Positions 17,978 to 62,556 of a DNA stretch of 64,000 nt are shown piece by piece. Every line of letters starts with the position of its first letter. Within the stretch, counting starts at the first letter, position 1. Under the pieces are notes generated by a model that saw only the letters and a program-made list of their open reading frames with translations, made no database searches and was not told the DNA's origin. The DNA comes from Sphaerisporangium album (GTDB lineage Bacteria > Actinomycetota > Actinomycetes > Streptosporangiales > Streptosporangiaceae): positions 1 through 64,000 of the forward strand of contig NZ_QOIL01000017.1 in assembly GCF_003323745.1 (NCBI RefSeq). The letters run 5' to 3'. A program made the position numbers and the translations under genes.

Positions 17978-19399
17978 ATGGCGGACAAATCCATATCCCG
18001 GCGCGAGCTGCTGCGAAGCGCCGCCGTCACGGGACTGCTGCTCCCCGGCGCGCTGGCGGCGTGCGCGTCCCCGGGCGGCGGCGGGTCCAGAACGCCTGCC
18101 GCCGCGGCCACCGGCGCCACGTCGGCGGCCAACCCGCTCGGCATCGCCGAGACGTCCCCGTTCGAGGTGGTGATCTTCGACGGCGGGTTCGGCGACGCCT
18201 ACGCCAGGAACATCCACCAGCCCCTGTTCGCGGCCAGGCACCCGAGCGCGCAGATCAAGCACTCGGCCACCAAGGAGATCGCCAAGACGCTCCAGCCGCG
18301 GTTCGCCGGCGGGAACCCTCCCGAGTTCGTCAACAACAGCGGCGACAACGCGATGGACTTCGGCGCGCTGGCGCAGGACGGCCAGCTGCAGGACCTCGGC
18401 GCGTTGCTGGACGCTCCGAGCTGGGACGACCCCGCCATGAAGGTGCGCGACACGATCCTGCCCTCGGCGGTCGAGCTCGGCACCTACGACGGCACGTACT
18501 GCGTGCTCAACTACGCCAACACGGTGTGGGGCATCTGGTACTCCACCAAGCTGTTCGGCGACAACGGCTGGCAGGTGCCGAAGACCTGGGACGAGTTCAC
18601 GGCCCTGTGCGAGACGATCCAGAAGTCGGGCACGTGCGCGCCGTTCACCTACGCGGGCAAGCACCCGTTCTACATCTACGAGACGATCCTCACCCTGGCC
18701 GCCAAGATCGGGGGCGTCGAGGTGCTGAAGAACATCGACAACCTGGCGCCGGACGCCTGGAAGGCCGAGCCGGTCGCCAAGGCGGCGGAGGCGTTCGCCG
18801 AGCTCGGCGCGAAGTACCTGCTGCGCGGCACCGAGGGGCTGGACCACATCCAGACCCAGACCGCCCACAACAAGTACCAGGTCGCCATGCTGCCGTGCGG
18901 GTCGTGGCTGGAGAACGAGCAGAAGGACACCACCCCGGCGGACTTCGGGTACGCCATGTTCCCGCTGCCGTCGTTCTCGGAGTCCGACGCGCTGCCGTAC
19001 GGCACGCTGCACTCCCGGCCGGGCGAGGAGTTCTTCGTAGCGGCCAGGTCGGCCAATCCGCGGGCCGGCATGGAGTACATGCGGGCGATGCTGTCCAAGG
19101 AGGGGGCCGGGAAGTTCAGCGAGCTGGTCAGCACGCTCACCATCGTCAAGGGGGCGGCGGACGGCCGCACGCTGAAGCCGGGGCTGCGGAGCGCGGCGGG
19201 ACGGCTGAAGGAGGCCGGCGAGAACGTGACCTACTTCCGGTTCCGACAGTGGTACAAGGAATTGCACGACGAGGTGGCCGCGGCCACCGGCCAGCTGATG
19301 GCGGGACGCCTCAAGGTCGCGCAGTGGGCCGAGCGGGTCCAGCGGAAGTCGGACGAGATCAAGAACGACACCTCGGTGAAGAAGTTCACCCGCGCCTGA
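17978..19399 (+). CDS. ngcE: N-acetylglucosamine/chitobiose ABC transporter substrate-binding lipoprotein NgcE
   Basis: Extracellular binding protein for GlcNAc/chitobiose uptake, about 473 residues. It has a Tat-type signal (SISRRELLRSAAV) ending in the lipobox ALAAC, so it is probably exported folded and lipid-anchored. The mature part has the NgcE-type sequence YWGIWYSTKLFGDNGW-like core (VWGIWYSTKLFGDNG), PFTYAGKHPFYIYETI and a C-terminal QRKSDEIKNDTSVKKF. AGGAGG precedes ATG 17978. It is followed by two permeases in the order of known ngcEFG operons; the ATPase is supplied in trans in such systems. Together with the LPMO at 30.4 kb it points to chitin use. Confidence 0.88.
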   Translation: MADKSISRRELLRSAAVTGLLLPGALAACASPGGGGSRTPAAAATGATSAANPLGIAETSPFEVVIFDGGFGDAYARNIHQPLFAARHPSAQIKHSATKEIAKTLQPRFAGGNPPEFVNNSGDNAMDFGALAQDGQLQDLGALLDAPSWDDPAMKVRDTILPSAVELGTYDGTYCVLNYANTVWGIWYSTKLFGDNGWQVPKTWDEFTALCETIQKSGTCAPFTYAGKHPFYIYETILTLAAKIGGVEVLKNIDNLAPDAWKAEPVAKAAEAFAELGAKYLLRGTEGLDHIQTQTAHNKYQVAMLPCGSWLENEQKDTTPADFGYAMFPLPSFSESDALPYGTLHSRPGEEFFVAARSANPRAGMEYMRAMLSKEGAGKFSELVSTLTIVKGAADGRTLKPGLRSAAGRLKEAGENVTYFRFRQWYKELHDEVAAATGQLMAGRLKVAQWAERVQRKSDEIKNDTSVKKFTRA

Positions 19400-19473
19400 C
19401 TCCCGCCGTGAAGCCGGGGCACGTGGGCCGACATATCAGCTAAGGATGGAACGACCGGAAAGCGGGGAATAGG

Positions 19474-20415
19474 GTGTCGAATGGCACAAAACCGCCCTTC
19501 TTCATGAACCGCACCGCCTTCACCCGGGCGCGGTTCATCATCGGATTCCTCGCGGTCCCGGTGCTGCTCTACCTCGTCTACGTGATCTCGCCCTACGCCC
19601 AGGCGTTCTCCATCGCCATGACCGACTGGCGCGGCGTGAACGCCGAGCCCGGCTTCGTCGGGGCGGCGAACTTCCGGCGGCTCCTGGACGACAACGTGTT
19701 CTGGACCGCGGTGCGCCACAACGGCCTGCTGCTCGTCCTCATGCCGCTGGGCACGCTCGTGATCGCCCTGTTCTTCGCGTTCCTGCTGAACGCGGGTGGT
19801 CCTCGCGGCGTGTCCGGCGTGCGGGGGGCGCGGTTCTACCGCGTGGTGTTCTTCTTCCCCCAGGTGCTCGCCGTCGCGATCGTCGCCGTCCTGTTCCAGC
19901 AGGTCTTCCGGCCGGACGAGAGCGGCATGCTGAACGCGCCGCTCATGGCGCTCGGACTGGAGCCGGTCGGGTTCCTGTCCGACCCGGGCGTCGCGTTCTG
20001 GTCGATCCTCGGCGTGCTCATCTGGCAGGCGGTCGGCTTCTACGTCGTGCTGTTCTCGGCGGGCATGGCGTCCATCCCGCGCGACCTGTACGAGGCGGCG
20101 CAGATCGACGGCGCGACGCGCGGGCGGCTGTTCTTCCGCGTCACGCTGCCCCTGCTGTGGGACACGGTGCAGGTCGGGTGGATCTACCTCGGCATCGCGG
20201 CCCTGGACGTCTTCGCGATCGTGTGGGTGATGACCGCCGAGCACGGCGGCCCCGACCACTCGACGACGGTCATGGCCGCCGAGATCTACCGCAACGCCTT
20301 CCAGTACTTCAAGTTCGGCTACGCCTCGGCCATGGGCGTGGTGCTGTTCTTCTTCACGGTCGCCTTCGCGGTGGTGGCGCTTCGCCTGTCCCGCCGCGAG
20401 CGGGTCGAGTTCTGA
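19474..20415 (+). CDS. ngcF: GlcNAc/chitobiose ABC transporter permease NgcF
   Basis: Membrane subunit of the ngc importer, about 313 residues with six predicted helices. The coupling loop is IPRDLYEAAQIDGATRGRLFF near residue 194, and FAIVWVMTAEHGGPDHSTTVM corresponds to the MalF/NgcF group. GTG 19474 has GGGGAATAGG just upstream; ATG 19504 is an alternative. It lies 74 bases after ngcE and 11 bases before ngcG, in the same operon. Confidence 0.87.
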   Translation: MSNGTKPPFFMNRTAFTRARFIIGFLAVPVLLYLVYVISPYAQAFSIAMTDWRGVNAEPGFVGAANFRRLLDDNVFWTAVRHNGLLLVLMPLGTLVIALFFAFLLNAGGPRGVSGVRGARFYRVVFFFPQVLAVAIVAVLFQQVFRPDESGMLNAPLMALGLEPVGFLSDPGVAFWSILGVLIWQAVGFYVVLFSAGMASIPRDLYEAAQIDGATRGRLFFRVTLPLLWDTVQVGWIYLGIAALDVFAIVWVMTAEHGGPDHSTTVMAAEIYRNAFQYFKFGYASAMGVVLFFFTVAFAVVALRLSRRERVEF

Positions 20416-20426
20416 GGGGGCCGGCG

Positions 20427-21359
20427 ATGGTCTCACGCACGAGCGCAAGGACGGCCGAGGTCGGGCTCACCCGCGGCCAGGTCCGCGAACGGCGGCGGCT
20501 CCGGCTCGGTCCGCTCTCGGGGCTGTCCCACGTGGCGCTGGTGGTGTGGACGGTCCTGGTCGTGGTGCCGATCGTATGGACGTTCCTGGCGTCGGTGAAG
20601 AGCGAGGACGAGATCTTCGGCAGTGCCTGGTCGCTGCCGGCCACCCCGCGCTGGGACAACTGGGCCCGCGCCTGGGACCAGGCGCACGTCGGCCGGTACA
20701 TGCTGAACAGTGTCGTGGTGGTGTCCCTGGGCACGGCCGGCACCATGCTGTTCGGCGCGATGGCGGCGTACGTGCTGGCGCGCTACCGGTTCCGGGGCAA
20801 CCGGGCGGTCTACCTGCTGTTCGTCTCCGGGCTGGCCTTCCCGGTCTACCTGGCGCTCACGCCGCTGTTCTTCGTGGTGCGCAACATGGGGAACCTGCCG
20901 CTGATCGGCCCCCTCATCGGCCTGGACTCCTACGGCGGGCTCGTCCTCGTCTACATCGCCTACTCGCTGCCGTTCACGGTGTTCTTCCTGTCGGCCTTCT
21001 TCCGCACGCTCCCGCAGGCGGTGGCCGAGGCGGCGTTCGTGGACGGCGCCTCGCACAGCAGGGTGTTCTTCCAGATCATGCTGCCGCTGGCCCGGCCGGG
21101 CATCGTGAGCATCACGATCTTCAACGTCCTCGGCCAGTGGAACCAGTACCAGATCCCGCTGGTCCTGCTCAGCGGGCAGGCGAAGGACAAGTGGGTGCTC
21201 ACCCAGGGCATCGCGGACATCTCCACGGCCGCGGGCTACGACGCGGACTGGGCGGCGTTGTTCGCGGCGCTGAGCATGGCGATCCTGCCCATGCTGATCG
21301 TCTACACGATCTTCCAGCGGCAGATCCAGGCCGGGCTGACCGCGGGCGCGCTGAAGTAG
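20427..21359 (+). CDS. ngcG: GlcNAc/chitobiose ABC transporter permease NgcG
   Basis: Second permease of the ngc system, about 310 residues. A 40-residue basic cytoplasmic N-terminus precedes six helices. The coupling loop AVAEAAFVDGASHSRVFFQI is near residue 198, and GQWNQYQIPLVLLSG is typical of the NgcG/MalG group. ATG 20427 follows GAGGGGG, 11 bases after the ngcF stop. Last gene of the operon, followed by a hairpin. Confidence 0.88.
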   Translation: MVSRTSARTAEVGLTRGQVRERRRLRLGPLSGLSHVALVVWTVLVVVPIVWTFLASVKSEDEIFGSAWSLPATPRWDNWARAWDQAHVGRYMLNSVVVVSLGTAGTMLFGAMAAYVLARYRFRGNRAVYLLFVSGLAFPVYLALTPLFFVVRNMGNLPLIGPLIGLDSYGGLVLVYIAYSLPFTVFFLSAFFRTLPQAVAEAAFVDGASHSRVFFQIMLPLARPGIVSITIFNVLGQWNQYQIPLVLLSGQAKDKWVLTQGIADISTAAGYDADWAALFAALSMAILPMLIVYTIFQRQIQAGLTAGALK

Positions 21360-21795: not shown

Positions 21796-22077
21796 CTACC
21801 CCGCGCTCACGCGGCGGTCCTGCTCACGCCGGGCGCTCGCCCTGCGCTCGTCCGGGTCGGTGCCACCCCAGATCCCGTGCTCCTGGCCGGTGCTCAGCGC
21901 GTAGTCGAGGCACGGCCTGCGGACCGGGCAGCGCCGGCACACCGCCTTGGCCCGCTCGTGCTGCAGGTGGCCCGGGCCCTTCGCCGATATCGGGAAGAAC
22001 AGCTCCGGGTCCTCGCCACGGCAGGCGGCGCGGCGCAGCCAGGAGACGGCGGGCAGGATCGCGTTCTGGGTGATCAT
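21796..22077 (-). CDS. WhiB family iron-sulfur transcriptional regulator
   Basis: A short Wbl protein, about 93 residues. It holds a [4Fe-4S] cluster through four cysteines: AACRGEDPELFF supplies the first, and VCRRCPVRRPC the other three in C-x2-C-x5-C spacing. The WhiB turn GIWGGTDPDERR follows, then a basic C-terminus for DNA or sigma contact. Wbl proteins control development, redox response and antibiotic resistance in actinomycetes. ATG 22077 is chosen since it starts just ahead of the conserved W and first Cys. It lies downstream of the lanthipeptide synthetase on the same strand, 228 bases away, so co-transcription is possible but not certain. Confidence 0.9.
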   Translation of the reverse strand: MITQNAILPAVSWLRRAACRGEDPELFFPISAKGPGHLQHERAKAVCRRCPVRRPCLDYALSTGQEHGIWGGTDPDERRASARREQDRRVSAG

Positions 22078-22305
22078 AACAATCCAATGAGAGAGACCGA
22101 TGTCCAATGGCTGCCGGGTCAGCCGTGGAGTCGCGTGCCCGCTGGCGATGCCTTGACACCTGTTTGCGGATAAATCAGCCGTCCGATGTCGATATCGGGT
22201 ACCACCCATTACTTCCCTTTTGAACCGAACAGCGGTGCGCTTCCCGCGGCCTTCCCGGGGAATCGCCCACCGACCTCCCGCTCCCCGCCGGCCGTTTCTC
22301 CGGGA

Positions 22306-25176
22306 TCAACGCGGATCGGGCAGCAGGACGGAAGGAAGCGTGCTGTCCGGGTGCATCCGGAGCAACTGGTAGATCATGCCGCCCACGCCCGGGAGCAGGC
22401 CGGGCGTGAAGGCGTCGCGGGCCAGGCCGCTGACCGGCCCGTGCTCCTCCAAGCCGCCGATCACGTGCGCCGAGACCGACTCCCGGGTCAGCCCCTCCGG
22501 TCCGAGGCCTGCGGCGATCGCCCGGTCCAGGGTCTCCCAGATGCCGAGGTCTCCGTGGCAGAGGGTGTGGTTCCAGCCGAGGCTCCCGGGCCAGCTGGAC
22601 GCCGCGGCGCGGCGGAGCACGTCCTCCCAGTGCCGGCCGCCCTGGCGGGCCAGCAGGTCGGCCGCGATGATGCCGATGCCGGCCCCGCCGTGGCACCACG
22701 CGCTGGAGGTCACGCGAGGCTCGGCTTCGCGCAGGTCGCGCCATCCGCCCCCGGCCGGGTCGTACAGCGACTCCTCGAACAGGAATGCCTTCTCGGCGAG
22801 GACGCCGAGCCCGGCGGTGTCGCGCGTCGCGGCGGCGGAGAGCCGGGCCAGCGCCCAGCCGATCCCGGTCGCGCCGTGCGAGACCCCGCCCATTCCCCGC
22901 GGGTACAGGTCGCCGGGCCAGCACGCTCCCCGCTCCTCGTCCCGGGCGAGCGAGACCAGCCGCTCCCCGATCAGGTAGGCGTCCTTGGACCACCGCTCGT
23001 CGCCGGTGCGTTCCGCCAGGCGCAGCAGCGGCACCACGCCGCCGGCCATTCCGGTGAGCAGGTCGTAGGTCTCGTCGGCCGCGACCGCCTCGGGCATGGC
23101 CTCGGCCGACGCGCGCGCCCGGGCGAGCGCCTCCCCGGAGGGGACGGCCCCGAGCCCGCTCAGCAGCAGCCAGGCCCAGATCCGCGAGCCGAGGCCGACG
23201 TAGCCGCCGGGAGGCTGGGGGCGGCGCCGCGTCCCGGCACGCCGGAGGTCGGCCTCCCGCTCCTCGGCCGTCCTGATCGAGCGGAGCAGATCCGCCAGCA
23301 GCGGCTCCAGTCCCGGCACCGCCTCGGCCCTGCCCCGTCCCGCCTCGCTCTGGTAGGCGGCCAGCACGATCGCGACCCCGTACGACCCGCCGTACAGGTC
23401 CAGGGACAGCGGCTGCACCGACCAGCCGGTGGCGTTGAGCACCGGCGCGATCCAGGTGACCGTGCCGTCGTCCCCGCGCACCGCCGCGTCCAGCAGGTCA
23501 CGGGCGATGGCGGCCGCCACCCGGCGCCGGCGCGCGTCGAGGTCGTGGTACCGCAGAAGCGACGGTGCCGCCGATTTGGCCTGCGGCGTCCACCCCTCGT
23601 TGAGGTAGGCGCTGATCAGCGCGGCGCGGATCACGTCCCGGTCCAGGGCCGGCTCACGGTCGCGCCAGCGCCGCAACGCGTCCTCGATGAGATCCTTCTC
23701 CTCTCCCCACGTGGTGCCGCGGGGGCCGTCCATACGGCCATGGCGAGGGGTTGTGCTGAAGAAGGGGATGTCGCCGTCCAGCAGCTCGGCGACCTCGGCG
23801 CCGATCACATCCGGGTCCGACGGCGCTCCGGGGAGGTTCCCGGCCTGCTCGGCCAGCAGGTGTGCCGCCTTGCGGATGGCGGGCGCCTCGTCGTGGAGCG
23901 AGGCGGGGTGCCACAGCATCCGGCTGAGCTCGGCGTACGCCTCGGTGGCGCGCAGCACGACCCGGATCGGGTGATCGGCGAAGTCCGCGAGCAGCCCGGC
24001 CAGCTCGCCGCGCCGGTCCAGCGCGTCGAGATGCCCGGCGAGGTCGGTGAATCCCGCCAGCACCAGGTCCCAGTAGCGGGCCAGGACCGGATCGGGGCTC
24101 GGGTGGTTGGCCGCGGTCCCCATCTCGACCCGTTCCATGCCCAGCCGCGCCTCGTCCGTGCCGGCCCCGACGACGACGGGCACCCTGATGTACGGCTGCT
24201 GGCCGGGCAGGCCGCCGAGGGCGGACATGTCGACGCCCCGCCAGCCGAGTGCGACGCCCCGGCCGGGCAGGAGGCCGGTGCGCAGCACCGATCCCTCGAG
24301 CAGGTCGATCGCCCGGTCGAAGGCGGCGCCGTAGCCGGAGGGTTCGGCGGTGGCGTGCGGGGTGAACAGGGTCTCGCAGTCGACGACGACGGGAACGGGC
24401 CCGGCGGCGATGAGGTTCTCCGCGTGCAGGTCGCTGCCGCCGATCAGGCGCATCAGCGCCAGCCAGTGCCCGACGCCCCGGTAGAAGGACCGCAGCTCCG
24501 CGTCACCGGCGCAGTGGCGGTGCCCGATGTGCTCCGCCCACCCGTACTCCCCGCGCACCAGCACGCCGGGCACGCGGATACCGAGCCCACCGGGCACGCC
24601 CGGCGACAAGCGGGCGATCAACCCCGCCAGCTCCCGGTCCACGGCCAGCGAACGCGGCTTGTAGACCGCAGCGCCCTCCGCGCCGCGCACCAGGGCGACG
24701 GCGCGTCCGCCGCGATGGCTGTCACCCGCCCCGAACTCCACCCCGGCCAGATCGCCCCGCACACCACCCGGCAGCGCCGCCAGCTCCGCCCGGTCGGCCG
24801 CGAACCGGCGCGCCAGCTCCACGGCCGCCGCACACCTGCCGGCGATGATCGTGCCGAGCCGCGACAACATCGTGGGATAGTGCGCGGTCAGTGAACTCCA
24901 GAACTCCGGCGTCTCGGCGGATGCCTTCCATTCCCTCCAGCGAAGCTGCGGCGTCTCCTCGGTCAGCCGCCCGCTGATGCGGGCCGCGTTGAGCTCCAGC
25001 AGCAGAACCCGGGTGACCTTGCGGCGGACGGTCTCCTCCAGCGCCTCGGCGGCTCCTTTTCGGATGACTCCCGCCTCCGCCTCCGCGAGGCCGGGGACCG
25101 AGGCCAGTGCGGCCGACAGCGCGTCCAGCGACGGTGCGGTCAGGACGTCCAGCGACGGGTCGAAGTCCCCGGCCAC
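22306..25176 (-). CDS. lanM: Class II lanthipeptide synthetase LanM
   Basis: Bifunctional enzyme, about 956 residues, that dehydrates Ser/Thr in the precursor peptide and closes (methyl)lanthionine rings with Cys. Residues 1 to about 560 are the kinase-like dehydratase, with GGSDLHAENLIA and VVVDCETLF as phosphotransfer and metal motifs. About 600-956 is the LanC-like cyclase. The cyclase zinc ligands are all present: C828 in AWCHGGAG, C873 and H874 in LCHGDLG; GVSHGATG is another cyclase hallmark. It starts at GTG 25176, 19 bases after the precursor gene stop, with GGGAAAGG upstream. The partner is the 63-residue peptide just before it. No LanT, protease or immunity gene is adjacent. Confidence 0.94.
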   Translation of the reverse strand: MAGDFDPSLDVLTAPSLDALSAALASVPGLAEAEAGVIRKGAAEALEETVRRKVTRVLLLELNAARISGRLTEETPQLRWREWKASAETPEFWSSLTAHYPTMLSRLGTIIAGRCAAAVELARRFAADRAELAALPGGVRGDLAGVEFGAGDSHRGGRAVALVRGAEGAAVYKPRSLAVDRELAGLIARLSPGVPGGLGIRVPGVLVRGEYGWAEHIGHRHCAGDAELRSFYRGVGHWLALMRLIGGSDLHAENLIAAGPVPVVVDCETLFTPHATAEPSGYGAAFDRAIDLLEGSVLRTGLLPGRGVALGWRGVDMSALGGLPGQQPYIRVPVVVGAGTDEARLGMERVEMGTAANHPSPDPVLARYWDLVLAGFTDLAGHLDALDRRGELAGLLADFADHPIRVVLRATEAYAELSRMLWHPASLHDEAPAIRKAAHLLAEQAGNLPGAPSDPDVIGAEVAELLDGDIPFFSTTPRHGRMDGPRGTTWGEEKDLIEDALRRWRDREPALDRDVIRAALISAYLNEGWTPQAKSAAPSLLRYHDLDARRRRVAAAIARDLLDAAVRGDDGTVTWIAPVLNATGWSVQPLSLDLYGGSYGVAIVLAAYQSEAGRGRAEAVPGLEPLLADLLRSIRTAEEREADLRRAGTRRRPQPPGGYVGLGSRIWAWLLLSGLGAVPSGEALARARASAEAMPEAVAADETYDLLTGMAGGVVPLLRLAERTGDERWSKDAYLIGERLVSLARDEERGACWPGDLYPRGMGGVSHGATGIGWALARLSAAATRDTAGLGVLAEKAFLFEESLYDPAGGGWRDLREAEPRVTSSAWCHGGAGIGIIAADLLARQGGRHWEDVLRRAAASSWPGSLGWNHTLCHGDLGIWETLDRAIAAGLGPEGLTRESVSAHVIGGLEEHGPVSGLARDAFTPGLLPGVGGMIYQLLRMHPDSTLPSVLLPDPR

Positions 25177-25195
25177 GCGTCTCGGCCTTTCCCGG

Positions 25196-25387
25196 TCAGC
25201 AGCAGAAGCCGCCGCCCGCGGTGCACGAGCTCGGCCTCTTCGTCTCGATGAGGCTCATCGTGATCTCCTCCTCGGTGTACTCGCCGATGAGCGGCGGGCC
25301 GGCCGGGTTCTCCCAGCCTTCGGCGGAGGCCACTCCCCTACGCCACGCAGCGATGATCTCTTCGGCGTGCTCCACTACAACCGGCAT
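25196..25387 (-). CDS. lanA: Class II lanthipeptide precursor peptide LanA
   Basis: A 63-residue peptide directly before lanM, started by ATG 25387 with AGGAG 6 bases upstream. The leader is acidic and helical. It carries IIAAWRRG...ENPAG, resembling mersacidin, lichenicidin and actagardine leaders (SWK...NPAG or HPAG). The C-terminal core ends SSCTAGGGFCC, with three Cys and three nearby Ser/Thr, so up to three rings. CTAGGGFC recalls the Gly-rich TLPGGGGVC ring of mersacidin but is shorter. Basic TKR precedes the core and may mark cleavage. The exact cleavage site and ring pattern are inference. Annotation tools can miss this small gene. Confidence 0.9.
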   Translation of the reverse strand: MPVVVEHAEEIIAAWRRGVASAEGWENPAGPPLIGEYTEEEITMSLIETKRPSSCTAGGGFCC

Positions 25388-25413
25388 TGTTACTCCTATT
25401 AGGGATTGGATGG

Positions 25414-25448
25414 CATATCCCACGCTAACTACATGATTTTCAAAATCA
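25414..25448 (-). promoter_or_regulatory. lanA promoter region with 15-bp palindrome
   Basis: TGATTTTCAAAATCA (25434-25448) is a perfect palindrome with 7-bp arms around one base, 47-61 bases before the lanA ATG, in a patch far richer in A/T than the window. On the minus strand, TTGAAA within it (25438-25443), an 18-bp spacer and GATATG (25414-25419) could form a weak promoter. The palindrome would then act as the operator. The XRE regulator next door is a candidate binder. Confidence 0.5.
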
Positions 25449-25508
25449 ATAGACATCACGCACGATGGCCGATCACGTGGATTAATGGCGGCGCCGAAAC
25501 GCCACCGA

Positions 25509-25527
25509 CCGGCGGACGACCCGCCGG
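25509..25527 (-). terminator. Hairpin between the XRE gene and the lan promoter
   Basis: Perfect 7-bp stem CCGGCGG/CCGCCGG with a 5-base loop, about 40 bases after the XRE stop. It would insulate lanA from read-through. Confidence 0.4.
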
Positions 25528-25566
25528 GTGCCGCGCGTGACAGCCCGACACGTGCCGCCCGGCCCG

Positions 25567-26475
25567 TCAGGTCGCGGACGCGTCCCAGTCCCAGGTGATG
25601 CCGAGCACGCCCGCGGCGACGTCCGAGGCGACCAGGTGGACGGCGTGGTGGGGGTTCATGGTGAGCACGCCCGTGCGGTGCGGGGGGCCGACCAGCCCGC
25701 GGCGGGCGTAGGAGTAGCACGCGGCGGGCAGGCGCTCGGCGTGGAAGCGCACCTCCAGGACGTACTGCGACACCATGTACCGGAAGCCGTGCCCGTACTC
25801 GGTGTCCGGCTCCTCGGCGTGGTCCTCGTACTGGTGCTCGAAGACCCACGTCTCCCCCGCCCGCAGCTCGGCGCCGAACAGGTACTCGGCGACCAGCACC
25901 GGCTGGGTGGGATGGCGCTCGACCCGGCCGAGGCGGCAGTTGTCCATCGGGGTCAGCACGACGTCCTCGATCGAGGTGCCCGGGCCGCCGAAGAAGCGCA
26001 GGAAGTAGCGGTCGACGCCGTCGCGACGGGCCCGGATGAGCGTGCGGTTCCACACCCGGCAGGCCGCCCCGAACCGGTTGACGGTCACCTTCTGCTGCTG
26101 GTTGAGGATCGTCGCCTCGCGGTCGCGCGAGCCGGGGAGCAGGTCGAGCAGCTCGCCGATCGCGCCGCCGCGCTCGTCGTGGGTGACCGACTCGTGGTCC
26201 AGCAGGTCGGTCAGCGACGAGGGCGGCAGGCCCAGTATCTGCTCCAGCGCCGTGACGACGCGCATGGAGCGTTCGGTGCCCGGGCGGCGGTTGCCCTGCT
26301 GCCAGTCGCTCAGCGTCGACAGCGCGACGGGCACGCCGGCCTGGACGATCCTGCGGCGCAGCCGTTCCAGCGTCAGCGAGCGCTCCTGGATCGCGACGCG
26401 CAGCGCCTGGTGGAACGGGCCTACGAGCAGCAGGTCGGCGAGCTCGCCGCGCTCTTCTCGTGACTCCCGGCTCAT
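25567..26475 (-). CDS. XRE-like helix-turn-helix regulator next to the lan locus
   Basis: About 302 residues. The N-terminal 90 or so contain a helix-turn-helix in AGVPVALSTLSDWQQGNRRP, of the Cro/C1 type, followed by LEQILGLPPSSLTDLL. The remaining 200 residues form a beta-rich domain (VTVNRFGAACRVWNRTLIRARRDGVDRYF, then MVSQYVLEVRFHAERL). I cannot name this part; it is reminiscent of ligand-sensing C-terminal domains of actinomycete XRE proteins. ATG 26475 has AGGAG 8 bases upstream. It is upstream of lanA on the same strand, with a hairpin between, and divergent from an ECF sigma factor. It may control lanAM, but that is inference from position. Confidence 0.82.
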   Translation of the reverse strand: MSRESREERGELADLLLVGPFHQALRVAIQERSLTLERLRRRIVQAGVPVALSTLSDWQQGNRRPGTERSMRVVTALEQILGLPPSSLTDLLDHESVTHDERGGAIGELLDLLPGSRDREATILNQQQKVTVNRFGAACRVWNRTLIRARRDGVDRYFLRFFGGPGTSIEDVVLTPMDNCRLGRVERHPTQPVLVAEYLFGAELRAGETWVFEHQYEDHAEEPDTEYGHGFRYMVSQYVLEVRFHAERLPAACYSYARRGLVGPPHRTGVLTMNPHHAVHLVASDVAAGVLGITWDWDASAT

Positions 26476-48534: not shown

Positions 48535-50343
48535 GTGGGCAGGTCAGGGCGGGCGGTTCTCGGCCGCGCGGTCAAGGGACAGTGGCGGGGCGTCGCCTTC
48601 GGCTCGGCGCTCGGCATGGCCCACCAGGCAGGCGAGGCGCTGGTCCCGGTCCTGATCGGCGTCGTGGTCGACCAGGCCATCGCCCGCGGCGACCTCGGCG
48701 CGCTGCTGCGCTGGCTCGCCGCCCTCGCCGTCGTCTACCTCGCCCTGTCGTTCGGCTTCCGCTTCGGCGCCCGCGCCGGGGAACGCGCCGCCGAGCAGGC
48801 CGCCCACGCGCTGCGCGTCGCCCTCGTCCGGCGCGTGCTCGACCCCGGCGGCGGCGCCGGGAACGGCCGCCCGCCCGGTGCGCTGACCTCCATCGCGACC
48901 GAGGACGCCCGCCGCGCCGGCGCGGTCAACATGGCGCTGATGTCCGCCGTCTCGGCCCTCGCCGGACTGCTGGTGGGTGCGGTGGCCCTGCTGCGCGTCT
49001 CGGTGCCGCTCGGGCTGACCGTGCTGGCGGGCACGCCGGTGCTGCTCTGGCTCGGGCACCTGCTGAGCAAGCCGCTGGAACACCGCAGCGAGGCCGAGCA
49101 GGAGCGCGCCGCGCACGCCTCCGGCGTCGCCGCCGACCTGGTGGCCGGGCTGCGGGTGCTCAAGGGCATCGGCGCCGAGGCGGCGGCGGTCGCCCGCTAC
49201 CGGCGCACAAGCCGTGACTCGCTGGCGGCGACCCTGCGGGCGACGCGCGCCGAGGCGCTCCAGAACGGCGTGGTGCTCGCCCTCACCGGGGGCTTCATCG
49301 CCGTCGTCGCACTGGTCGGAGGACGGCTCGCCGCGCAGGGTGACATCAGCCTGGGCCAGCTGGTCTCGGCGGTCGGGCTCGCGCTGTTCCTGCTCGGGCC
49401 GCTGGAGACGTTCTCCTGGGTGAACGCGGAGTTCGCGCAGGGACGCGCGTCGGCGGCGCGCATCGCCGAGGTCCTCGCCGCTCCGCCGGCTGTCGTCCCC
49501 GGCGGCCGTCCGCTGCCCGTCCCGGTACGCGGCGCGGTGCGGCTGCGCGGCGTCACCTACGGCGGGCTGCGCGACCTCGACCTCGACGTCGCGGCCGGTG
49601 ACACGCTCGGCGTCGCCGCCACCGACCCGGCGGACGCGGCGGCCCTGCTGCGCTGCCTCGGGCGACGGTCCGACCCCGACAGCGGAACGGTGGAGCTGGA
49701 CGGCGTCCCCCTGCGCGACCTCTCCCCCGCCGACCTGCGCACGGCGATCCTGGTCGCCGCGCATGACGCGGACCTGTTCGCCGGCACCCTGCGGGCCAAC
49801 GTCACGGCCGGACTCCGCGACGACGCCGGGACACCACACGGCGGTGACGTCACCGTGGTGGAGGGAGCCGCCGGCGTACCGATCCCGGACGCTCCCCGGC
49901 CGGCGGCGGAGGCGGCGGCCGATCCGGGCCGGGCGATGGAGGCTGCGGCCGATCTCGGGCGGGCGATGGAGGCGGCCGCGGCCGACGAGGTCGCCCGTGC
50001 GCTGCCGGACGGCCTGGACTCACTGGTCGGCGAGCACGGGCGGTCCCTGTCGGGCGGGCAGCGCCAGCGGGTCGCCCTGGCCCGCGCCCTGGCCGCCGAC
50101 CGGCCCGTGCTGGTCCTCCACGACCCGACCACGGCCGTCGACGCCGTCACCGAGGCACGGATCGCGGCCGGAATCCGCGACCTGCGCCGGGGCCGCACGA
50201 CGATCCTGGTGACCACCAGCCCCGCGCTCCTCGCCATCGCCGACCACGTCGTCCTCCTCGACCGCGGGCGGATCACCGGCTCGGCCCCGCACGCCGACCT
50301 GCTCCGGGACGACATCACCTACCGGACGGCGGTCCTGGCATGA
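48535..50343 (+). CDS. Siderophore ABC transporter, exporter-fold subunit with degenerate ATP site
   Basis: About 602 residues: six transmembrane helices (to about 310) fused to a nucleotide-binding domain, as in the IrtA/YbtP-type heterodimers that move siderophores. The NBD is unusual. Its P-loop position reads VAATDPADAAALL with no GxxGxGK. Walker B is LVLHDP instead of LDEP, the Q-loop Gln is His and the H-loop His is Thr (LVTTSPALL). The signature LSGGQRQR near residue 505 is intact. A duplicated stretch (PGRAMEAAADLGRAMEAAA) is inserted near residue 465. GTG 48535 has GGGGAG; it overlaps the next gene by ATGA. Confidence 0.85.
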   Translation: MGRSGRAVLGRAVKGQWRGVAFGSALGMAHQAGEALVPVLIGVVVDQAIARGDLGALLRWLAALAVVYLALSFGFRFGARAGERAAEQAAHALRVALVRRVLDPGGGAGNGRPPGALTSIATEDARRAGAVNMALMSAVSALAGLLVGAVALLRVSVPLGLTVLAGTPVLLWLGHLLSKPLEHRSEAEQERAAHASGVAADLVAGLRVLKGIGAEAAAVARYRRTSRDSLAATLRATRAEALQNGVVLALTGGFIAVVALVGGRLAAQGDISLGQLVSAVGLALFLLGPLETFSWVNAEFAQGRASAARIAEVLAAPPAVVPGGRPLPVPVRGAVRLRGVTYGGLRDLDLDVAAGDTLGVAATDPADAAALLRCLGRRSDPDSGTVELDGVPLRDLSPADLRTAILVAAHDADLFAGTLRANVTAGLRDDAGTPHGGDVTVVEGAAGVPIPDAPRPAAEAAADPGRAMEAAADLGRAMEAAAADEVARALPDGLDSLVGEHGRSLSGGQRQRVALARALAADRPVLVLHDPTTAVDAVTEARIAAGIRDLRRGRTTILVTTSPALLAIADHVVLLDRGRITGSAPHADLLRDDITYRTAVLA

Positions 50344-52532
50344 ACGACCGCACCCTCGGCACACCGAAGACCACCGCCGCCCCGGAAGAGACCACCACAC
50401 CCGAGACGACCACCGCGCCTGAGACGAGCGCCGTACCGGAGGGGGCCACCGCGCCCGAGACAGCCGCACCCGAGAAAACCGCCACACCCGAGGGGGCCAC
50501 CGCGCCCGGAATGGCCGCGAGGGCCGGATCCCGGCCCGGTGGAGGAAGTGCCGGCCGTGAGCTGCTGCCCACCGCCACACCCCGGCGGACCTGGGCCGCC
50601 GTACGAGAGTCGCTGCGTCCTCACCGCGGGGCGGCGGCCGGCGGGTTCGCCGTCATGGTCGCGGCGACCGCGATCGGCCTGCTGACGCAGCCGCTGCTCG
50701 GGCGGGTCGTGGACCTGGTGGCCGAGCGGCGCCCGCCCGGCGCGCTGACCGAGCCCGTGGTGCTGCTGGTGGTGGTCGCGGTCACGCAGGGGCTCGCCAC
50801 GGCGCTCGGTCTCTCACTGGTGTCCCGGCTCGGGGAGACCATGCTGGCCCGGCTGCGTGAGCGGTTCGTCGACCGGGCGCTGCGGCTTCCCCTGGAGCAG
50901 TTGGAACGGGCGGGCTCGGGCGACCTGACCGCCCGCGTCACCGCCGACGTCTCCCGGGTGGCCGAGGCGGTGCGCACCGCTCTGCCCGAACTGGCCCGCT
51001 CGCTGCTGACCATCGTGCTGACCCTCGCCGCGCTGGCCGTGCTCGACTGGCGCTTCCTGGCCGCCGCGCTGGTGGCCGTCCCCGTCCAGCTCCACACCGC
51101 GCGCTGGTACGTCCGCCGCGCCGTCCCGCTGTACGCCGGGCAGCGCGTCGCCGCCGGGGAGATGCAGCAGCAACTGCTCGACACCATCGGCGGCGCCGCC
51201 ACCGTGCGGGCGTTCCGCCTGGAGCGCGAGCACGCGGGGAAGGCCGCCGGGCGGTCGCGGGCCGCGCTCGATCTCACCATGCGCGGCGTCGGGCTGGTGC
51301 TGCGCTTCTACAGCCGCCTGCACATCGCCGAGTACGCGGGCCTGGCGGCGGTGCTGCTGGCCGGGCTCCTGCTCGTGCGCGGCGGGTCGGCCAGCCTCGG
51401 CACGGCGACCGCCGCCGCCCTCTACTTCCACAGCCTGTTCGGCCCGGTCAACTCGGCCCTGGTCCTGATGGACGACGCCCAGGTCGCCGCCGCCGGCCTC
51501 GCCCGCCTCGTCGGCGTCACCGACCTGCCCGTTCCTGAACCGCCCCCGACCCCGCCCACCTCCGAGACGCGGGCGGCCTCCGAGGGAGCGACCTCCCAGG
51601 TGGGGACGGCCCCCGAGGAGCGCGCGGCGTCCCGGGGAGCCATGTCCGAGGCGCCGGCGGCCTCACGGGCGGTCACCTCACAGCCGCCGGCCGCCGAGGG
51701 CGTGGTGGCGGCCGAGGCGGACGTCGCCGTGGAGATCGTCGGCCTCGGTCACGCGTACGAGCCGGGCAGGCCCGTACTTCGCGACGTGGACCTGCGCCTC
51801 GCGCGCGGCGAGCGCGTGGCCCTGATCGGCGCCAGCGGCGCGGGCAAGACGACCCTCGCCAAGCTCGTCGCGGGCGTCCACACCCCGGCCACCGGATCGG
51901 TGCGGCTGCCCGTACCCGAAAGGGACGCCCTGGTTCCCGGACCGGGCACGACCCGACCCGTCGTCGCCCTGGTCACCCAGGAGACGCACGTCTTCGCCGG
52001 GCCGCTGGCCGAGGACCTGCGACTGGCCGGGCCGGACGCCACCGACGAGGAACTGCGCGCGGCGCTCGCCCGGGTCGGCGCGCTCGGCTGGGCCGAGGCG
52101 CTGCCCGAGGGCCTGCTCACGGTCGTCGGCGAGGGCGGCCACCGTCTCACCGCCGCGCAGGTGCAGCAGCTCGCCCTGGCCCGGCTGGTGCTGGCCGACC
52201 CTCCGATCGCGGTGCTCGACGAGGCGACGGCCGAGGCCGGCAGTGCCGGCGCCCGCGTGCTTGAGCGGTCCGCCGAGCGGGCGATCGAGGGCCGAACCGC
52301 CCTGATCGTCGCCCATCGACTCACCCAGGCCGCCACGGCGGACCGCGTCGTCGTCATGGACGGCGGCCGGATCGTCGAGAGCGGCCACCACGACGAGCTG
52401 CGCGCGGCCGGCGGACCCTACGCGGCGCTGTGGAAGGCCTGGTCACAGGCCCGCTCCGAGCTTCCCCCGGCCCCGGCCCACGACTCGGAGGCCCTGTCCG
52501 GCCCGGCGTCCGGCCCTCTCCTCACCCCATGA
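50340..52532 (+). CDS. Siderophore ABC transporter, exporter-fold subunit with catalytic ATP site
   Basis: About 730 residues: a Thr/Pro/Glu-rich N-terminal tail (about 1-65, made of TTAPE-like repeats), six transmembrane helices and an NBD. Walker A GASGAGKTT (near residue 497), Q-loop VTQETHVF, Walker B IAVLDEATAE and H-loop VAHRLTQ are canonical. The signature is degenerate (LTAAQVQQL instead of LSGGQ). It is the complement of the preceding subunit, so together they form one complete and one dead ATP site. The linker before the NBD is also low-complexity (about 400-460). Confidence 0.87.
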   Translation: MNDRTLGTPKTTAAPEETTTPETTTAPETSAVPEGATAPETAAPEKTATPEGATAPGMAARAGSRPGGGSAGRELLPTATPRRTWAAVRESLRPHRGAAAGGFAVMVAATAIGLLTQPLLGRVVDLVAERRPPGALTEPVVLLVVVAVTQGLATALGLSLVSRLGETMLARLRERFVDRALRLPLEQLERAGSGDLTARVTADVSRVAEAVRTALPELARSLLTIVLTLAALAVLDWRFLAAALVAVPVQLHTARWYVRRAVPLYAGQRVAAGEMQQQLLDTIGGAATVRAFRLEREHAGKAAGRSRAALDLTMRGVGLVLRFYSRLHIAEYAGLAAVLLAGLLLVRGGSASLGTATAAALYFHSLFGPVNSALVLMDDAQVAAAGLARLVGVTDLPVPEPPPTPPTSETRAASEGATSQVGTAPEERAASRGAMSEAPAASRAVTSQPPAAEGVVAAEADVAVEIVGLGHAYEPGRPVLRDVDLRLARGERVALIGASGAGKTTLAKLVAGVHTPATGSVRLPVPERDALVPGPGTTRPVVALVTQETHVFAGPLAEDLRLAGPDATDEELRAALARVGALGWAEALPEGLLTVVGEGGHRLTAAQVQQLALARLVLADPPIAVLDEATAEAGSAGARVLERSAERAIEGRTALIVAHRLTQAATADRVVVMDGGRIVESGHHDELRAAGGPYAALWKAWSQARSELPPAPAHDSEALSGPASGPLLTP

Positions 52533-52567: not shown

Positions 52568-53680
<1,113 letters not shown>

Positions 53681-53796
53681 CCGGGGCCCGCACCCGACGC
53701 CGCCACCACGGCGCCCGACCTCCCCAGTGATGCCCCCGATCCGGGCTCACGGCTCGACGGCGACGGCGGGCTTCCCAGGCGGAAGGGCGGATACGA

Positions 53797-53838
53797 AAGG
53801 CGTGGCCGCCGGACCTGTCCTGGTCCGGCGGCCACGCC
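53797..53838. terminator. Bidirectional 18-bp hairpin terminator
   Basis: Perfect 18-bp stem beginning AGGCGTGGCCGCCGGACC with a 6-base loop, between the convergent siderophore-transport operon and mbtH. Confidence 0.75.
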
Positions 53839-53883
53839 TCTGTCGTGTGCCCGTCGTGGGTCGGTGATGAGCGGTTCCGCCGG

Positions 53884-54093
53884 TCATCCGCCCTGGCGGT
53901 CGATGAGGCTCTTGGGGCGCATGTCGGTCCAGTTGCTCTCGATGTAGTCCAGGCACTCCTGGCGGGGGCCGGGGCCGTGGACGAGCGTCCAGCCCGCCGG
54001 GATCTCCGCGAACTCCGGCCAGAGGCTGTGCTGGTTCTCACCGTTGACGAGCACCGAGTAGACGCCGTCGGGGTTCTCGAAGGGGTTGGTCAC
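53884..54093 (-). CDS. mbtH: MbtH-like protein
   Basis: 69-residue activator of NRPS adenylation domains. It shows the family pattern: [29 protein letters not shown], and the closing [11 protein letters not shown]. The three conserved tryptophans are present. GTG 54093 has GAGGAG 6 bases upstream. It lies downstream of the NRPS on the same strand, separated by 342 bases that contain the 15-bp tandem repeat. It is expected to bind one or more A domains of that NRPS. Confidence 0.95.
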
Positions 54094-54153
54094 TTTCTTC
54101 TCCTCTTGTCGGGATCGGCCGGGCTCATGGCCGCGTGTTCCAAAGGCGTTCTT

Positions 54154-54348
54154 CGCGGTCACGCTGTTCGCGGTTCGGTCGTTGGCGGTTCGGTCGTTCG
54201 CGGTTCGGTCGTTGGCGGTTCGGTCGTTCGCGGTTCGGTCGTTGGCGGTTCGGTCGTTCGTGGTTCGGTCGTTCGTGGTTCGGTCGTTCGTGGTTCGGTC
54301 GTTCGTGGTCAGGGCGTTCGTGGTCAGGGCGTTCGCGGCCTGATCCTT
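54154..54348. repeat. 15-bp tandem repeat (about 13 units) between NRPS and mbtH
   Basis: Thirteen consecutive 15-base units, type CGCGGTTCGGTCGTT. Units 2-10 (54169-54303) differ mainly at two positions (C/G at base 1, C/T at base 3). Units 11-12 carry a shared variant (CAGGG), and the first and last are degenerate. In places C-start and G-start units alternate, suggesting duplication of a 30-base pair. It fills most of the 342-base gap between the NRPS stop and mbtH. Function unknown. Confidence 0.9.
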
Positions 54349-54435
54349 CGTGCCGCGGTTGTTCTCGGGCGGCGGGCCCGATGTCGGTGGTGCGGTGATG
54401 CCGGCGAGATGGATCTCATTGTCGTGTGCGCCGGG

Positions 54436-57400
54436 TCAGCGCCGGGTGTCGATCGTCTCGGCGCGGCCGACCACCGCGCGTAGCACCTGGAACCAGGTAC
54501 CGGCGAGGTCCGCGACCGCCTCCTCGGTCAGCAGTTCGGCGGCGAAGGACCACTGGGCGGTGAGCACCGGGCCGCCGGAGCGATCTTCGGTCAGGGCGTT
54601 GACCGTCAGGGGATGGGACAGCGGCATGCCCGGGTCGGCGTCGAGGTCGCCGGGCTCCTCCTCGGGCGCGTACGACCAGTCGGCTGCCTCGAAGCCACCG
54701 AAGCGTCCGAGGTAGTTGAACTCGATCTGCGCCTCACCGAGGCGGGCGAGCTCGGGCCCGGTCACAGGGTTGAGGTGCCGGAGCAGGCCGTGCCCGAGGC
54801 CCGCCATCGGCAGGGACGCGAGCCGCGCCTTGATCCGCTCCACGGCCTCGTCGAGGGCCGGTCCGCCCGCGAGCGCGTCGTCCAGGTCGACGGCGCCCGG
54901 GTCCAGCAGCACCGGGACGACGCTGGTGAACCAGCCGACCGTACGCGACAGGTCCGCCTCCCCCACCAGCCCTTCCTCACGACCGTGCCCCTCCAGGTCG
55001 ACCAGCACGGCGTACCCGCTCCCGCCGCCGCCCTGCTCCCCCCTGCCCGCGCCGGGACCCCTGTGGCGGGTCTCCTCGGCGCCCAGGCCGGGAACGTCAT
55101 CTCCGGCCTTCCCGGTGCACGGGTCCGAATCGTCCTTTTCATCCCAGGGCCTCGCGAGGCCGCCGGGCGTGCGGCGGCGCCAGTCGGCGACGGCCAGGGC
55201 GAGCGCGGTGAGGAGTACGTCGTTGACCGTCGCGCCGAAGGCGGCGGGGACGCGACCGAGCAGGCGCTCGGTGACGTCCTCCGGCAACGCGCGTGACAGG
55301 TACTTCGCGGTGGCCACGAGGTCGCGCCGCGGGTCCAAGGGACGGGCCAGCGGCAGCGGTTCGCCGCCCTCCAGCATGCGCGTCCACATCGGCAGCTCGG
55401 CCTCCAGCGCCGGATCCACGGCGCGCTCCCGGAGTCGCTCCGACCAGCGGCGGAACGACGTCTCGACCGGCGGCGGCGAAGGCGTCCCGCCCGCCGCTAC
55501 GTCCCTCCAGGCGGCGGCGAGGTCGGGCAGCAGGACGCGCCAGGACACCCCGTCGACGACCAGGTGGTTGACCATCAGCAGCAGGCGCCCCGGACGGTCG
55601 CGCCCGGCGTCGAACCAGACCGCGCGCACCATGACGCCCGCCTCCGGATCCAGGAGCGAGCGAGCCTGGAGCGCCTGCTCGACGTAGAGCGCCCGCAGCG
55701 CCTCCTCGTCGCCGGACGTCTCGACCCGCACGATCAGGGACGCCGCGTCCACCGTCCCGGGCGCGGCCACCCGCAAGGTCCACAGCCCGCCGTCGTCCTT
55801 GCCGGGGGCCCGTTCGAGGCGGGCTCGCAGCATGTCGTGGCGGTCGACGACGGACTGCAGCACCCGGCGCAGCCCGTCGAGGTCGAGGGAGGCGGGGGTC
55901 AGCACGAACGCGGCCTGGTGGAACCCCGCGATCGGCCCGCCGCGCTCCAGCGTGGCGCGCATGATCGGGGTCAGGGGAACCGTGCCGGTGCCGTCGTCGT
56001 GCGTCGCGGCCGCCGTCTCGGGGCCGGCCATGACGGCGACGGCGGCCAGGGCCGCGACCGTGCGGTGCCGGAACACCTGGCGCGGGCTGAACCGGACGCC
56101 CGCCGCGCGGGCCCGGGCGGCGAACCGGATCGCGACGATACTGTCCCCGCCGGAGGCGAAGAAGTCGTCGTCGGCACCGACCCGCGGCACGCCGAGCACC
56201 TCGGCGAAGACGGCCGCGAGGGCGCGCTCGGCCTCGCCGGAGGGTTCACGCCCGCCCCCGGTGCCATAGTCGGGCGCCGGGAGCGCCCTGCGGTCCAGCT
56301 TGCCGTTGGGCAGCAGCGGAAGCGCGTCGAGGACGACCACCGCCGCGGGGACCATGTAGTCCGGCAGCGCGGCGGCCACGAAGGCACGCAGCTCCGCCGG
56401 ATCGGCGTCGAGACCGGTGACGGGGCCGGTGACGGGGCCGGTGACCGGGGCAGTGACCGGGCCGTCGACCGAGGCAGTGACGGCGACAGGGCCGGTCACA
56501 GGGCCGGGGGCGGGACCGGGGGCGGGAGTCGTGGTGGGGCCGGTGGTAGGGACGACGTAGGCGACCAGGCGGGTGACGTGGTCGTCCTCGCGCGGGGTGA
56601 CGACGACGTGGGCCACCGACGGGTGCCGGTCCAGCACGGCCTCGATCTCGGCGGGCTCGACGCGGAACCCCCGGATCTTCACCTGGTCGTCGGCGCGCCC
56701 GCCGTACTCCAGCCGCCCGTCGCGGGTCCAGCGCGCCAGGTCGCCGGTCCGGTACATGCGCGTGCCGGGCGGGCCGTACGGGTCGGCGGTGAACCGTTCG
56801 GCGGTCTGACCCGGGCGGCGGAGGTACCCCCGGGCCAGGCCCGCACCCGCGAGATACAGCTCTCCCGTGACGCCCGGGGGCACGGGCCGCAGCCGGGCGT
56901 CGAGCACGTAGGCGCGGGCCCCGGCGACCGGACGTCCGACCAGCGGGCGCTCACTGTCGCCGACGCGGGCGACGAGGGCGTCCACGGTGGCCTCGGTGGG
57001 GCCGTAGAGGTTGAACGCCTCGGTGGAGCGGAGGGCGGCCAGTCGCCTCCACAGCGAGTCCGGCACCGCCTCGCCGCCGACCCCGACCACGGCGAGCGGG
57101 CCGTCGCCGTCCGCGAACAGGCCCGCCTCGGCCATCTGCGTGAGGAACGACGGCGTGACCTCGATGAAGTCGATCCCCTCGCGCCGCACGGCCTCGGCGG
57201 CGAGCTCGGCGTCGCGGCGCGTCTCGTCGTCCAGGATGTGCAGGGCGTGCCCGTCCAGCGACCAGAGCTGCGGCTGCCAGGAGGCGTCGAAGGAGAACGA
57301 CCATGCGTGGCCGACGCGCAGGGCCCGGCGGCCGGTGGCGCGCTTGGCCGGGTCGTACAGGGTCGCGCGGTGGCTACGGAAGAGGTTGACGACGCCGCCG

Positions 57401-60400: not shown

Positions 60401-62556
60401 CGGCCCAGGTAGCCCCGGGCCAGCCCCTCCCCCGCCAGGTACAGCTCGCCGGCCACACCCGCGGGCACCGGCTGGAGCACCGCGTCAAGCACATGCGCGC
60501 GAATATTGGCGACCGGCGCCGCCCACGAACCCCGTGCCCGACCGGACCTGGGGACGGCCCCGGCGGCGTGGTCGCCCGGCCTGTCCGGCACGGGTACCGG
60601 CCCTGGAAGGTGGTCGCCCGCGTGGCGGCCGTAGGCGTCCACCGTGCACTCGGTCGGGCCGTACAGGTCGTGGACGAGGGTGCCGGGGAGCGCGGTGAGC
60701 CGGTCCCACAGGGCGGCGGGGGCGGCCTCGCCGCCCACCGTGATGACGCCGGGCACGTACCCGCCGGGCGCGAGGAATCCGTGGTGGGTCAATTCCTGCA
60801 CGTAGGTGGGGGTCAGGTCGACGTAGTCCAGACGCTCGTCCTCCACGTAGCGCAGCAGGGCGGCCGGGTCGGTCATCGTGGTCTCGTCGAGGACGTGCAG
60901 CTCGTGCCCGGCCAGCAGCCACAGCAGCGGCTCCCAGGAACCGTCGAAGCCGAACGACGCGGCGTGCAGCGCGCGCAACGTCTCGCGTCCTGAGGCCGAC
61001 CGCGCGGGCTCGATGACGTCCTCGCGCTGCCCGCCGAACAGGTTGCTCAGACCGCCGTGGATCCCGACCACGCCCTTCGGCCTGCCGGTCGACCCGGAGG
61101 TGTAGATGACGTACGCGGCCGCCGACGCCGGCACGCGCTCGCCGGGCAGCGGAGGAACGCCGGGGGCCTCAGGTCGGATCGCGCCGGAGAGCGGCACGCC
61201 CCGGCGCCGGTCCCGACGTGCGTCCCGGCGCCGGTCGGAGAGCGCGTCTGCGATCGTGTCCGGGAGTGGGGCGGGGAGCGCGTCCGGGAGTGGGGCCGGG
61301 AGGGCGTCGGGCGTGCCGAGGGGCAGGGTCGGTGTGGCGGAGGGCAGGGCCGGGGTGAGGGTGGGGCTGGTGAGGACGACGGCGGGGGCGGCGTCGTCCA
61401 GCATGTACGCCAGCCGCTCGGCCGGGTACCCCGGGTCCAGCGGCAGGTAGGCGGCGCCGGTCGCGAGCACGCCGAGGATCGCGGGCACCATCTCGGCCCG
61501 GGGAAGGGCCAGCCCGACGACGTCCCCCTCGCCCACCCCGCGCCACAGCAGCAGCCCGGCGATGCCGTTCACCTTGGCGGACAGCTCGGCGAAGGTCAGC
61601 CTGCGGCCCCCGGCGACCAGGGCCACCCGCTCGCCGTACGCGCGGACGGTGTCGGCGAAGATCGCGGGCACGGTACGCGGCTCGACGGGCCGGGCGGTGT
61701 CGTTCCAGGCGCCGAGGGCGTCGCGGCGTTCCTCCTCGGTGAGGATCGGCAGCGCGCCGACGCGCCGATCAGGGTCGGCGGCGAGCAGGCCGCACACCGC
61801 GACGGTCCGCTCCAGCAGCGTGCGCGCGGTCGCCTCGTCGGCGAGGTCGGCGGCGTACTCCAGCAGGACGACGACGCGGTCCTCGCCGGTGTGGTCGACG
61901 AACGTGAAGTCGAGGTCGAACTTGGCCGTCTCGACGCGGGCCGGCAGCCATTCGGTGGGCATGCCGAGCACGTCGGGGTCGCCGTCGGGGCGGTGGTGGT
62001 AGCCGAGCATGACCTGGAAGAGCGGGTTGCGTCCGGGCACGCGCGGCGGGTTGACGGCCTCGACGATCCGCTCGAACGGCAGGTCCTGGTGTTCGAAGGC
62101 GGCGAGGTCCGCCTCCTTCACGCGCGCCAGCAGCTCGGCGAAGGTCGGGTCGCCGGACAGGTCGGCGCGCAGCACCAGCGTGTTCACGAAGAAGCCCACC
62201 AGGTCGTCCAGCGCGGTGTCCGTGCGTCCGGCGATCGGGGAGCCGAGCACGATGTCGGTGCCCGCGCCCATCCGATGCAGCAGGACGGCGACGACGGCCT
62301 GGAACAGCATGAACATGCTGGTCCCGGTCTCGGCGGACAGGGCGCGCAGCGCGCGGGCGGTGCCGGCCGGCAGCTCGGCGCGCACGGTGCCGCCCCGGCC
62401 GGTGGGCTCGGCGGGGCGGGGACGGTCGAGCGGCAGCGCCATCTCCTCGGGCAGACCGCTCAGCGCCGCCGTCCAGAAGGCGAGCTGACGCGCGCCCTCG
62501 GCGGCGGAGTCGGCGGGGTCCGCGGGGTCGCCGAGGAGGCTGCGCTGCCAGAGGGT
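54436..62556 (-). CDS. Siderophore-type NRPS, downstream part: (C)-A-PCP-C-A-PCP-E (after a frameshift)
   Basis: About 2,700 residues of a modular non-ribosomal peptide synthetase. From 5' to 3': rest of C2, A2 ([13 protein letters not shown] near 61,105; FDGSWEP near 60,950), PCP2 (LGGHSLL near 59,670), C3 ([11 protein letters not shown] near 58,930), A3 ([13 protein letters not shown] near 57,440; FDASWQP), PCP3 (SGGDSIV near 56,150) and a terminal epimerisation domain ([11 protein letters not shown] near 55,560). There is no thioesterase, so release needs a partner or another module. A-domain specificity is not assigned. Low-complexity insertions occur in several loops. A missing base near 62,556 separates this frame from the upstream part. 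Confidence 0.88.

Follow-up and report, generated by a model that had tools for sequence, protein, structure and literature searches.

A probable self-contained two-gene DUF6229-type class II lanthipeptide unit with an unusual core in Sphaerisporangium album

How would a lanthipeptide core be cyclised that offers one Ser or Thr between its central Cys and a terminal Cys pair, and to which lanthipeptide family does it belong? Both questions are raised by a locus of Sphaerisporangium album, a soil actinomycete with a precursor family that was recognised recently and is chemically little studied. We analysed a 64,000-nucleotide stretch of its genome, hereafter the window. An earlier note had found here a minimal locus for a class II lanthipeptide of short core: a 63-residue precursor ending in SSCTAGGGFCC and, after a 19-base gap, a complete LanM with all three zinc ligands; the gene pair, the complete enzyme and a segment missing from a related genome bear this description out (Table 1). 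The span given at the time, 21796-26475, contains the unit but is too wide, as it takes in a WhiB-type gene and a gene without Pfam match; the unit itself occupies about 22306-25387. The sequence data make it highly probable that the window holds a self-contained two-gene unit of the DUF6229 type, in which the precursor would be modified by its own LanM.

Table 1. Features of the lanthipeptide locus and its flanks (positions in the window)
Feature	Position	Strand	Description
lanA	25196..25387	-	63-aa DUF6229-type precursor; ATG at 25387, stop at 25196
Putative core PSSCTAGGGFCC plus stop codon	25196..25234	-	Assigned from the core pattern; boundary to the leader putative
Candidate ribosome-binding site AGGAG	25393..25397	-	Just upstream of the lanA ATG; read from the sequence
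lanM	22306..25176	-	956-aa class II lanthipeptide synthetase (dehydratase and zinc cyclase); GTG start at 25176
Segment that G398 (L128) lacks at the syntenic site	22224..25582		3.36 kb; lanA and lanM only
Flanking WhiB-type gene	21796..22209	-	Pfam assignment; in the flank common to G398 and G403, outside the absent segment
Flanking gene without Pfam match	25567..about 26460	-	89% identical in G398 and G403

The precursor, with the leader MPVVVEHAEEIIAAWRRG...ENPAGPP... and a putative core of about (RP)SSCTAGGGFCC, matches Pfam PF19740 (DUF6229) with an E-value of 3.1e-20 and 72.3 bits (gathering score 25), its residues 6-63 aligning to positions 2-62 and so to nearly the whole model. DUF6229 proteins were identified in 2022 as lanthipeptide precursors, or a leader family, in work on the rhodanocins (PMC9576775). 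A chance match is excluded by the 72 bits against a cut-off of 25, by the precursor being the sole PF19740 match in its own genome at E 0.001, and by the recurrence of the gene pair in 37 of 39 stretches. At this leader, [DE]T[RKQ]x[PA] precedes the core, as in all 17 unique precursors of the window's group.

PF19740 matches were found in six of the 11 Sphaerisporangium genomes, including the window's, with no match in the other five, and family-wide in at least 36 of 341 Streptosporangiaceae genomes and at least 10 of 68 genera, own genome included. A search at order level returned the same 36 genomes, again as a minimum, and in a phylum-wide sample at least three of 396 genomes match at E 0.001, of which the window's own alone scores above the cut-off. 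Searching the genome contigs with a single protein found no relative, whereas 22 named loci emerged with a profile built from an alignment of six rows. The final set comprised 39 stretches (the window, 36 stretches from 35 other genomes, and two plasmid-collection records), in which a profile search identified 51 precursors, with loci in Sphaerisporangium melleum, S. rufum, S. fuscum, Microbispora, Streptosporangium, Nonomuraea and Planomonospora. In 37 of these 39 precursor-bearing stretches, a lanM gene follows immediately in the same orientation; L020 and L076, probably the same species, encode identical LanMs and are counted separately. The pairing is not universal, since an Embleya record (L021) and a short contig of genome G440 (L080) have a precursor without LanM in the fetched DNA. 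The L080 precursor adjoins sulfite reductase and tetrapyrrole methylase genes. The named DUF6229 members in the two papers found to use that name (PMC9576775 and PMC11451712) are gammaproteobacterial, and the present loci add an actinomycete branch to these lanthipeptides.

Comparison with relatives also delimits the unit. At the syntenic site of G398, a genome of the same genus, window position 22223 continues at 8265 of the fetched stretch and 25583 at 8114, the two flanks lying about 150 bp apart. Given that the missing segment holds only lanA and lanM, the two-gene minimal locus looks real. The difference represents either a gain in the window lineage or a loss in G398. A second genome, G403, has about 6.2 kb of other DNA at the same site, the short empty site being confined to G398, and both genomes carry their own precursor-LanM units elsewhere. 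Homologues of the flanking gene without Pfam match sit away from the lanthipeptide loci of G398 and G403, and the stretches fetched from S. melleum, S. rufum and S. fuscum resemble the window in lanA-lanM only. Inspection of the segment ends for repeats gave nothing convincing, the neighbouring genes scanned around the pair included neither a protease nor a peptide exporter, and Rfam yielded no match at gathering scores between 20000 and 28000. Sugar ABC importer-type genes at 17978-21356 were considered as a peptide exporter and rejected, as they comprise solute-binding and permease genes in the flank common to G398.

Other biosynthetic genes occur in the same genome. A large NRPS-type gene with condensation, AMP-binding and carrier domains lies on the minus strand at 54436-63129 of the window, separate from the lanthipeptide unit, and ABC transporter genes are found in the same region (48535-52532, plus strand). 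Contig C21 has, at about 52590-58764, another two long ORFs that lie close together and encode LanC-like domains, possibly a second lanthipeptide-like locus.

The window LanM scores 515.2 bits against NCBIfam TIGR03897 (cut-off 304), contains DUF4135 (PF13575) and LANC_like (PF05147) domains, and has LicM2 (6st5, E 2.6e-54) as its closest solved structure. The zinc ligands are C828, C873 and H874; among the LanMs, 35 of 37 sequences have the first Cys, and of the 36 that extend to the second, 35 have it. For CylM, the kinase and eliminase residues are D252, H254, K274, D347, H349, N352, D364, R506 and T512 (PMC4550811). Their counterparts, assigned by motif and spacing without direct alignment to CylM, are D152, H154, K173, D249, H251, N254, D266, R405 and T411, each identical in 37/37 aligned LanMs. 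In total, ten columns of the dehydratase half plus R405 are invariant in all 37 LanMs, and nine of these 11 correspond to residues named for CylM. Identity of the window enzyme to four relatives ranges from 72.2% to 74.8%, and the codon changes relative to S. melleum (174/139/277 at first, second and third positions) show a third-position excess.

In a quick tree of the LanMs, which left out L082 (its gene ends at a contig edge), the window falls within a clade of 12 rows with a support of 100, and these 12 loci are exactly those without an upstream Cys in the precursor core. Five long ORFs of the window's own genome served as outgroups; three of them have no CHG motif and are apparently unrelated, so that the root is meaningless and only the LanM clades were used.

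All 49 Cys-containing precursors (47 unique) have [ST]-x-C-[ST] followed by a terminal CC; two Cys-free precursors among the 51, described below, were left out of these counts. Relative to the central Cys, positions -2 and +1 are Ser or Thr in all 47 unique cores. A further Cys at -3 or -4 is present in 30, every one with Ser at +3, and absent in 17, nine of which have Ser at +3. This association fits a bond known from rhodanocin, the LanII product of Dyella sp. 333MFSha and the one DUF6229 product for which a described structure was found, where NMR established the rings T6-C11, C8-S14 and T12-C23 (PMC9576775) and where the C8-S14 pair stands in the same register. All 17 cores without the upstream Cys come from one LanM clade, so the association may reflect one event.

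The window core lacks both rhodanocin C8-S14 ring positions: no Cys is found at -3 or -4, and the residue at +3 is Gly. It is also alone among the 47 unique cores in having just one Ser/Thr in the interval from the central Cys to CC; two such residues are present in 21 and three in 25 of the remaining 46. The S. melleum precursor SSCTGARTIACC obeys the family core rule, unlike the window. Judging by the aligned cores, the single acceptor before CC is a real peculiarity of this locus. Rings of the family type cannot form in the peptide of the window: of its two terminal Cys, one has to bond with a Ser further upstream or else remain free.

Other traits that the earlier note had singled out belong to the family at large. 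The terminal Cys pair, taken there as unusual, ends every Cys-containing family sequence and also L106, a peptide matching TIGR03898. Nor is the very short core special: SSCTCSRFCC, one residue shorter, ends seven relatives, as the sole precursor in four and as one of two in three. Being common to relatives, shortness and CC are family traits, and the length of the window's core is no record either, an engineered lanthipeptide of five residues having been reported (PMC9486960). Predicted cores in PMC11251773 range from 7 to 53 residues; it also lists a class II subfamily E with 3-5 Cys, found in both Actinobacteria and Proteobacteria, that may be the DUF6229 family. At the position of the Gly run, sister cores read, for example, TAGRTGL and TGARTIA, so that the run looks like a local change; the proposal that CTAGGGFC is a shortened mersacidin ring finds no support. 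The suggestion that the core had not been described before held up, as no published copy of it or of five other family core strings was found in the article texts searched. Earlier genome-mining lists, such as that of PMC7268733, may hold these precursors.

Gene content downstream of LanM varies among the loci. At 18 of the 37 LanM loci, a downstream gene belongs to one ABC-transporter cluster, the ABC ATPases of which were confirmed by Pfam in four representatives; no member is present at 11 of the 12 loci of the window's clade. Three genes following the ABC gene were tested, and two encode BBE-type FAD enzymes and the third, in Nonomuraea aurantiaca (L073), is a GH95 gene, so the longer version of the cluster is not uniform. 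In genome G583 (L056, 2317-10532), a response regulator and a kinase precede the LanM unit, and an ABC transporter and a berberine-bridge-like (BBE-type) FAD oxidase follow LanM; similar ORF clusters, Pfam-checked in part, recur at other loci, and extra tailoring is possible in this branch. Rhizohabitans arisaemae (G614; L079, 7869-12747) has seven tandem DUF6229 precursors with differing cores ahead of a single LanM; genes for an ABC transporter and a BBE-type FAD enzyme come next.

A separate variant is found in the genus group holding Nonomuraea aurantiaca, at L081 (4214-7961, G548) and L082 (8001-11224, G547). Here, precursors of 173 and 180 aa fuse a DUF6229 leader (L081 against PF19740: E 1.2e-8) to a long core that is built of NTR repeats and contains no Cys. 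The adjacent LanMs keep the ten tested dehydratase columns and have lost zinc ligands, both Cys being replaced by Ala in L081 and the first in L082, which ends at the contig edge. That core Cys and cyclase site were lost together suggests a product that would be dehydrated only and contain much dehydrobutyrine. At E 0.001, 33 of 54 genus genomes have a match to the repeat precursor; the match is strong (E below 1e-70) only in the two genomes themselves, most others being weak and due to the repeats. The two loci are close relatives, and one event may account for both. Zinc-less LanM-like dehydratases are known with azoles, but these have a class III-type cyclase domain (PMC10676384).

For modification, ring formation, processing and export in the window, we infer the following course. 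The DUF6229-type leader would dock the precursor on LanM, which would phosphorylate and eliminate Ser53, Ser54 and Thr56 of the core, and its zinc cyclase would then join Cys residues to the dehydrated positions. Most likely, either Cys62 or Cys63 would be linked to Thr56 in a methyllanthionine ring, and Cys55 to Ser53 in a small one, an assignment suggested by analogy with the Thr-Cys / Thr-Cys order of rhodanocin. The leftover terminal Cys could bond to dehydrated Ser54 or persist as a free thiol. Leader removal and export would fall to enzymes encoded elsewhere. The calculated monoisotopic mass of the untagged, unmodified precursor is 6731.190, which would fall to 6695.169 on loss of two waters and to 6677.158 on loss of three; the mature thioether peptide would be expected at 0.9-1.2 kDa. 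The putative product would probably be a secreted antagonistic or signalling peptide.

A bolder version of this model can be put forward tentatively, with somewhat less than even expectation that it is correct. At about 11-13 residues, the peptide would rank among the smallest class II lanthipeptides in nature and have a ring layout unlike that of described DUF6229 products, the lost second acceptor forcing the CC ring back over Cys55 to Ser53 or Ser54, or else leaving a permanent free thiol; the unit would travel as lanA plus lanM, and the host would cleave and export.

The strongest alternative, in our view somewhat unlikely, is that the terminal Cys pair does not serve two thioethers and that one Cys remains free, as a thiol, in a disulfide or in a metal contact, in the window and possibly in the whole group. 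The core pattern lends it weight, the invariant Ser/Thr (-2 and +1 in 47/47, and also +3 where an upstream Cys is present, in 30) being one fewer than the invariant Cys, and the class II product LanII-2B kept a free Cys, for which its authors consider inefficient modification possible (PMC9576775). However, variable core Ser/Thr could serve all Cys, and the window itself has three such residues (S53, S54 and T56) for three Cys.

It is considerably less probable that the unit is decaying, the pair being intact as DNA while the core has lost a needed acceptor and the family product is no longer made. Although the unique single-acceptor core, the lack of export genes among the neighbours scanned and the presence of the family in six of 11 genus genomes would agree with decay, both genes are intact with start signals, all tested catalytic residues are there, LanM changes lean to third positions, and 11 of the 12 loci in the same group likewise lack the downstream ABC-cluster member. 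The two-gene unit is probably functional.

The family cores yield a testable rule, namely that the ring partners should be the invariant residues of [ST]xC[ST] and CC, with the window as its natural exception. How a core with one acceptor before CC is cyclised is the most useful question to come from this locus, and a two-gene unit with a short core is a convenient co-expression system.

A shortened mersacidin-type lantibiotic, with a leader of the mersacidin/actagardine type as the earlier note had assigned it and a Gly-rich lipid II-binding ring, would account for the Gly-rich core and for a common II-x-A-W-[KR]...PAG leader stretch (E 0.001, single comparison), yet it is highly improbable, as the leader belongs to DUF6229, no NCBIfam model matches the window precursor or three relatives up to E 10, TIGR03898 finds nothing in the genome, the lipid II motif TxTxEC (PMC7268733) and the boundary GG/GA cleavage site (PMC11251773) are absent from the precursor, and the sister cores have no Gly run. 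The leader likeness is real but weak and falls short of membership: hhalign against four mersacidin-type precursors gave a probability of 21.7% (E 0.00099 for this single comparison) over 26 columns covering that leader stretch only, which makes a distant leader kinship possible. The mersacidin/lichenicidin family (TIGR03898) shares the class II type and the W[KR]...PAG stretch with the window, but a TIGR03898 match, the GG/GA site, TxTxEC and, among the neighbours scanned, a C39-type peptidase transporter are all missing here. In the lacticin 481 group, a terminal adjacent Cys pair closes two rings, and leader and core differ from those of the window. The 23-residue rhodanocin core comes closer, with a DUF6229 leader, a class II LanM, a mid-core C-[ST] pair and a C-terminal Cys in common (PMC9576775); the window differs in having no upstream Cys and no Ser at +3, in ending with CC and in being about half as long. 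In Lysobacter, DUF6229 accounts for 21 of 27 unique precursors, with six similarity families over the precursors, and by description these are, like the window's, class II precursors with uncharacterised products (PMC11451712). The Streptosporangiaceae DUF6229 loci share leader, LanM and the [ST]xC[ST]...CC core; they differ from the window in that all 46 other unique cores offer two or more Ser/Thr on the way from the central Cys to CC, and in that an ABC-cluster gene is present at 18 of 37 LanM loci. The window locus is thus a genuine member of an already known kind of DUF6229 lanthipeptide, with a core that is unusual for that family.
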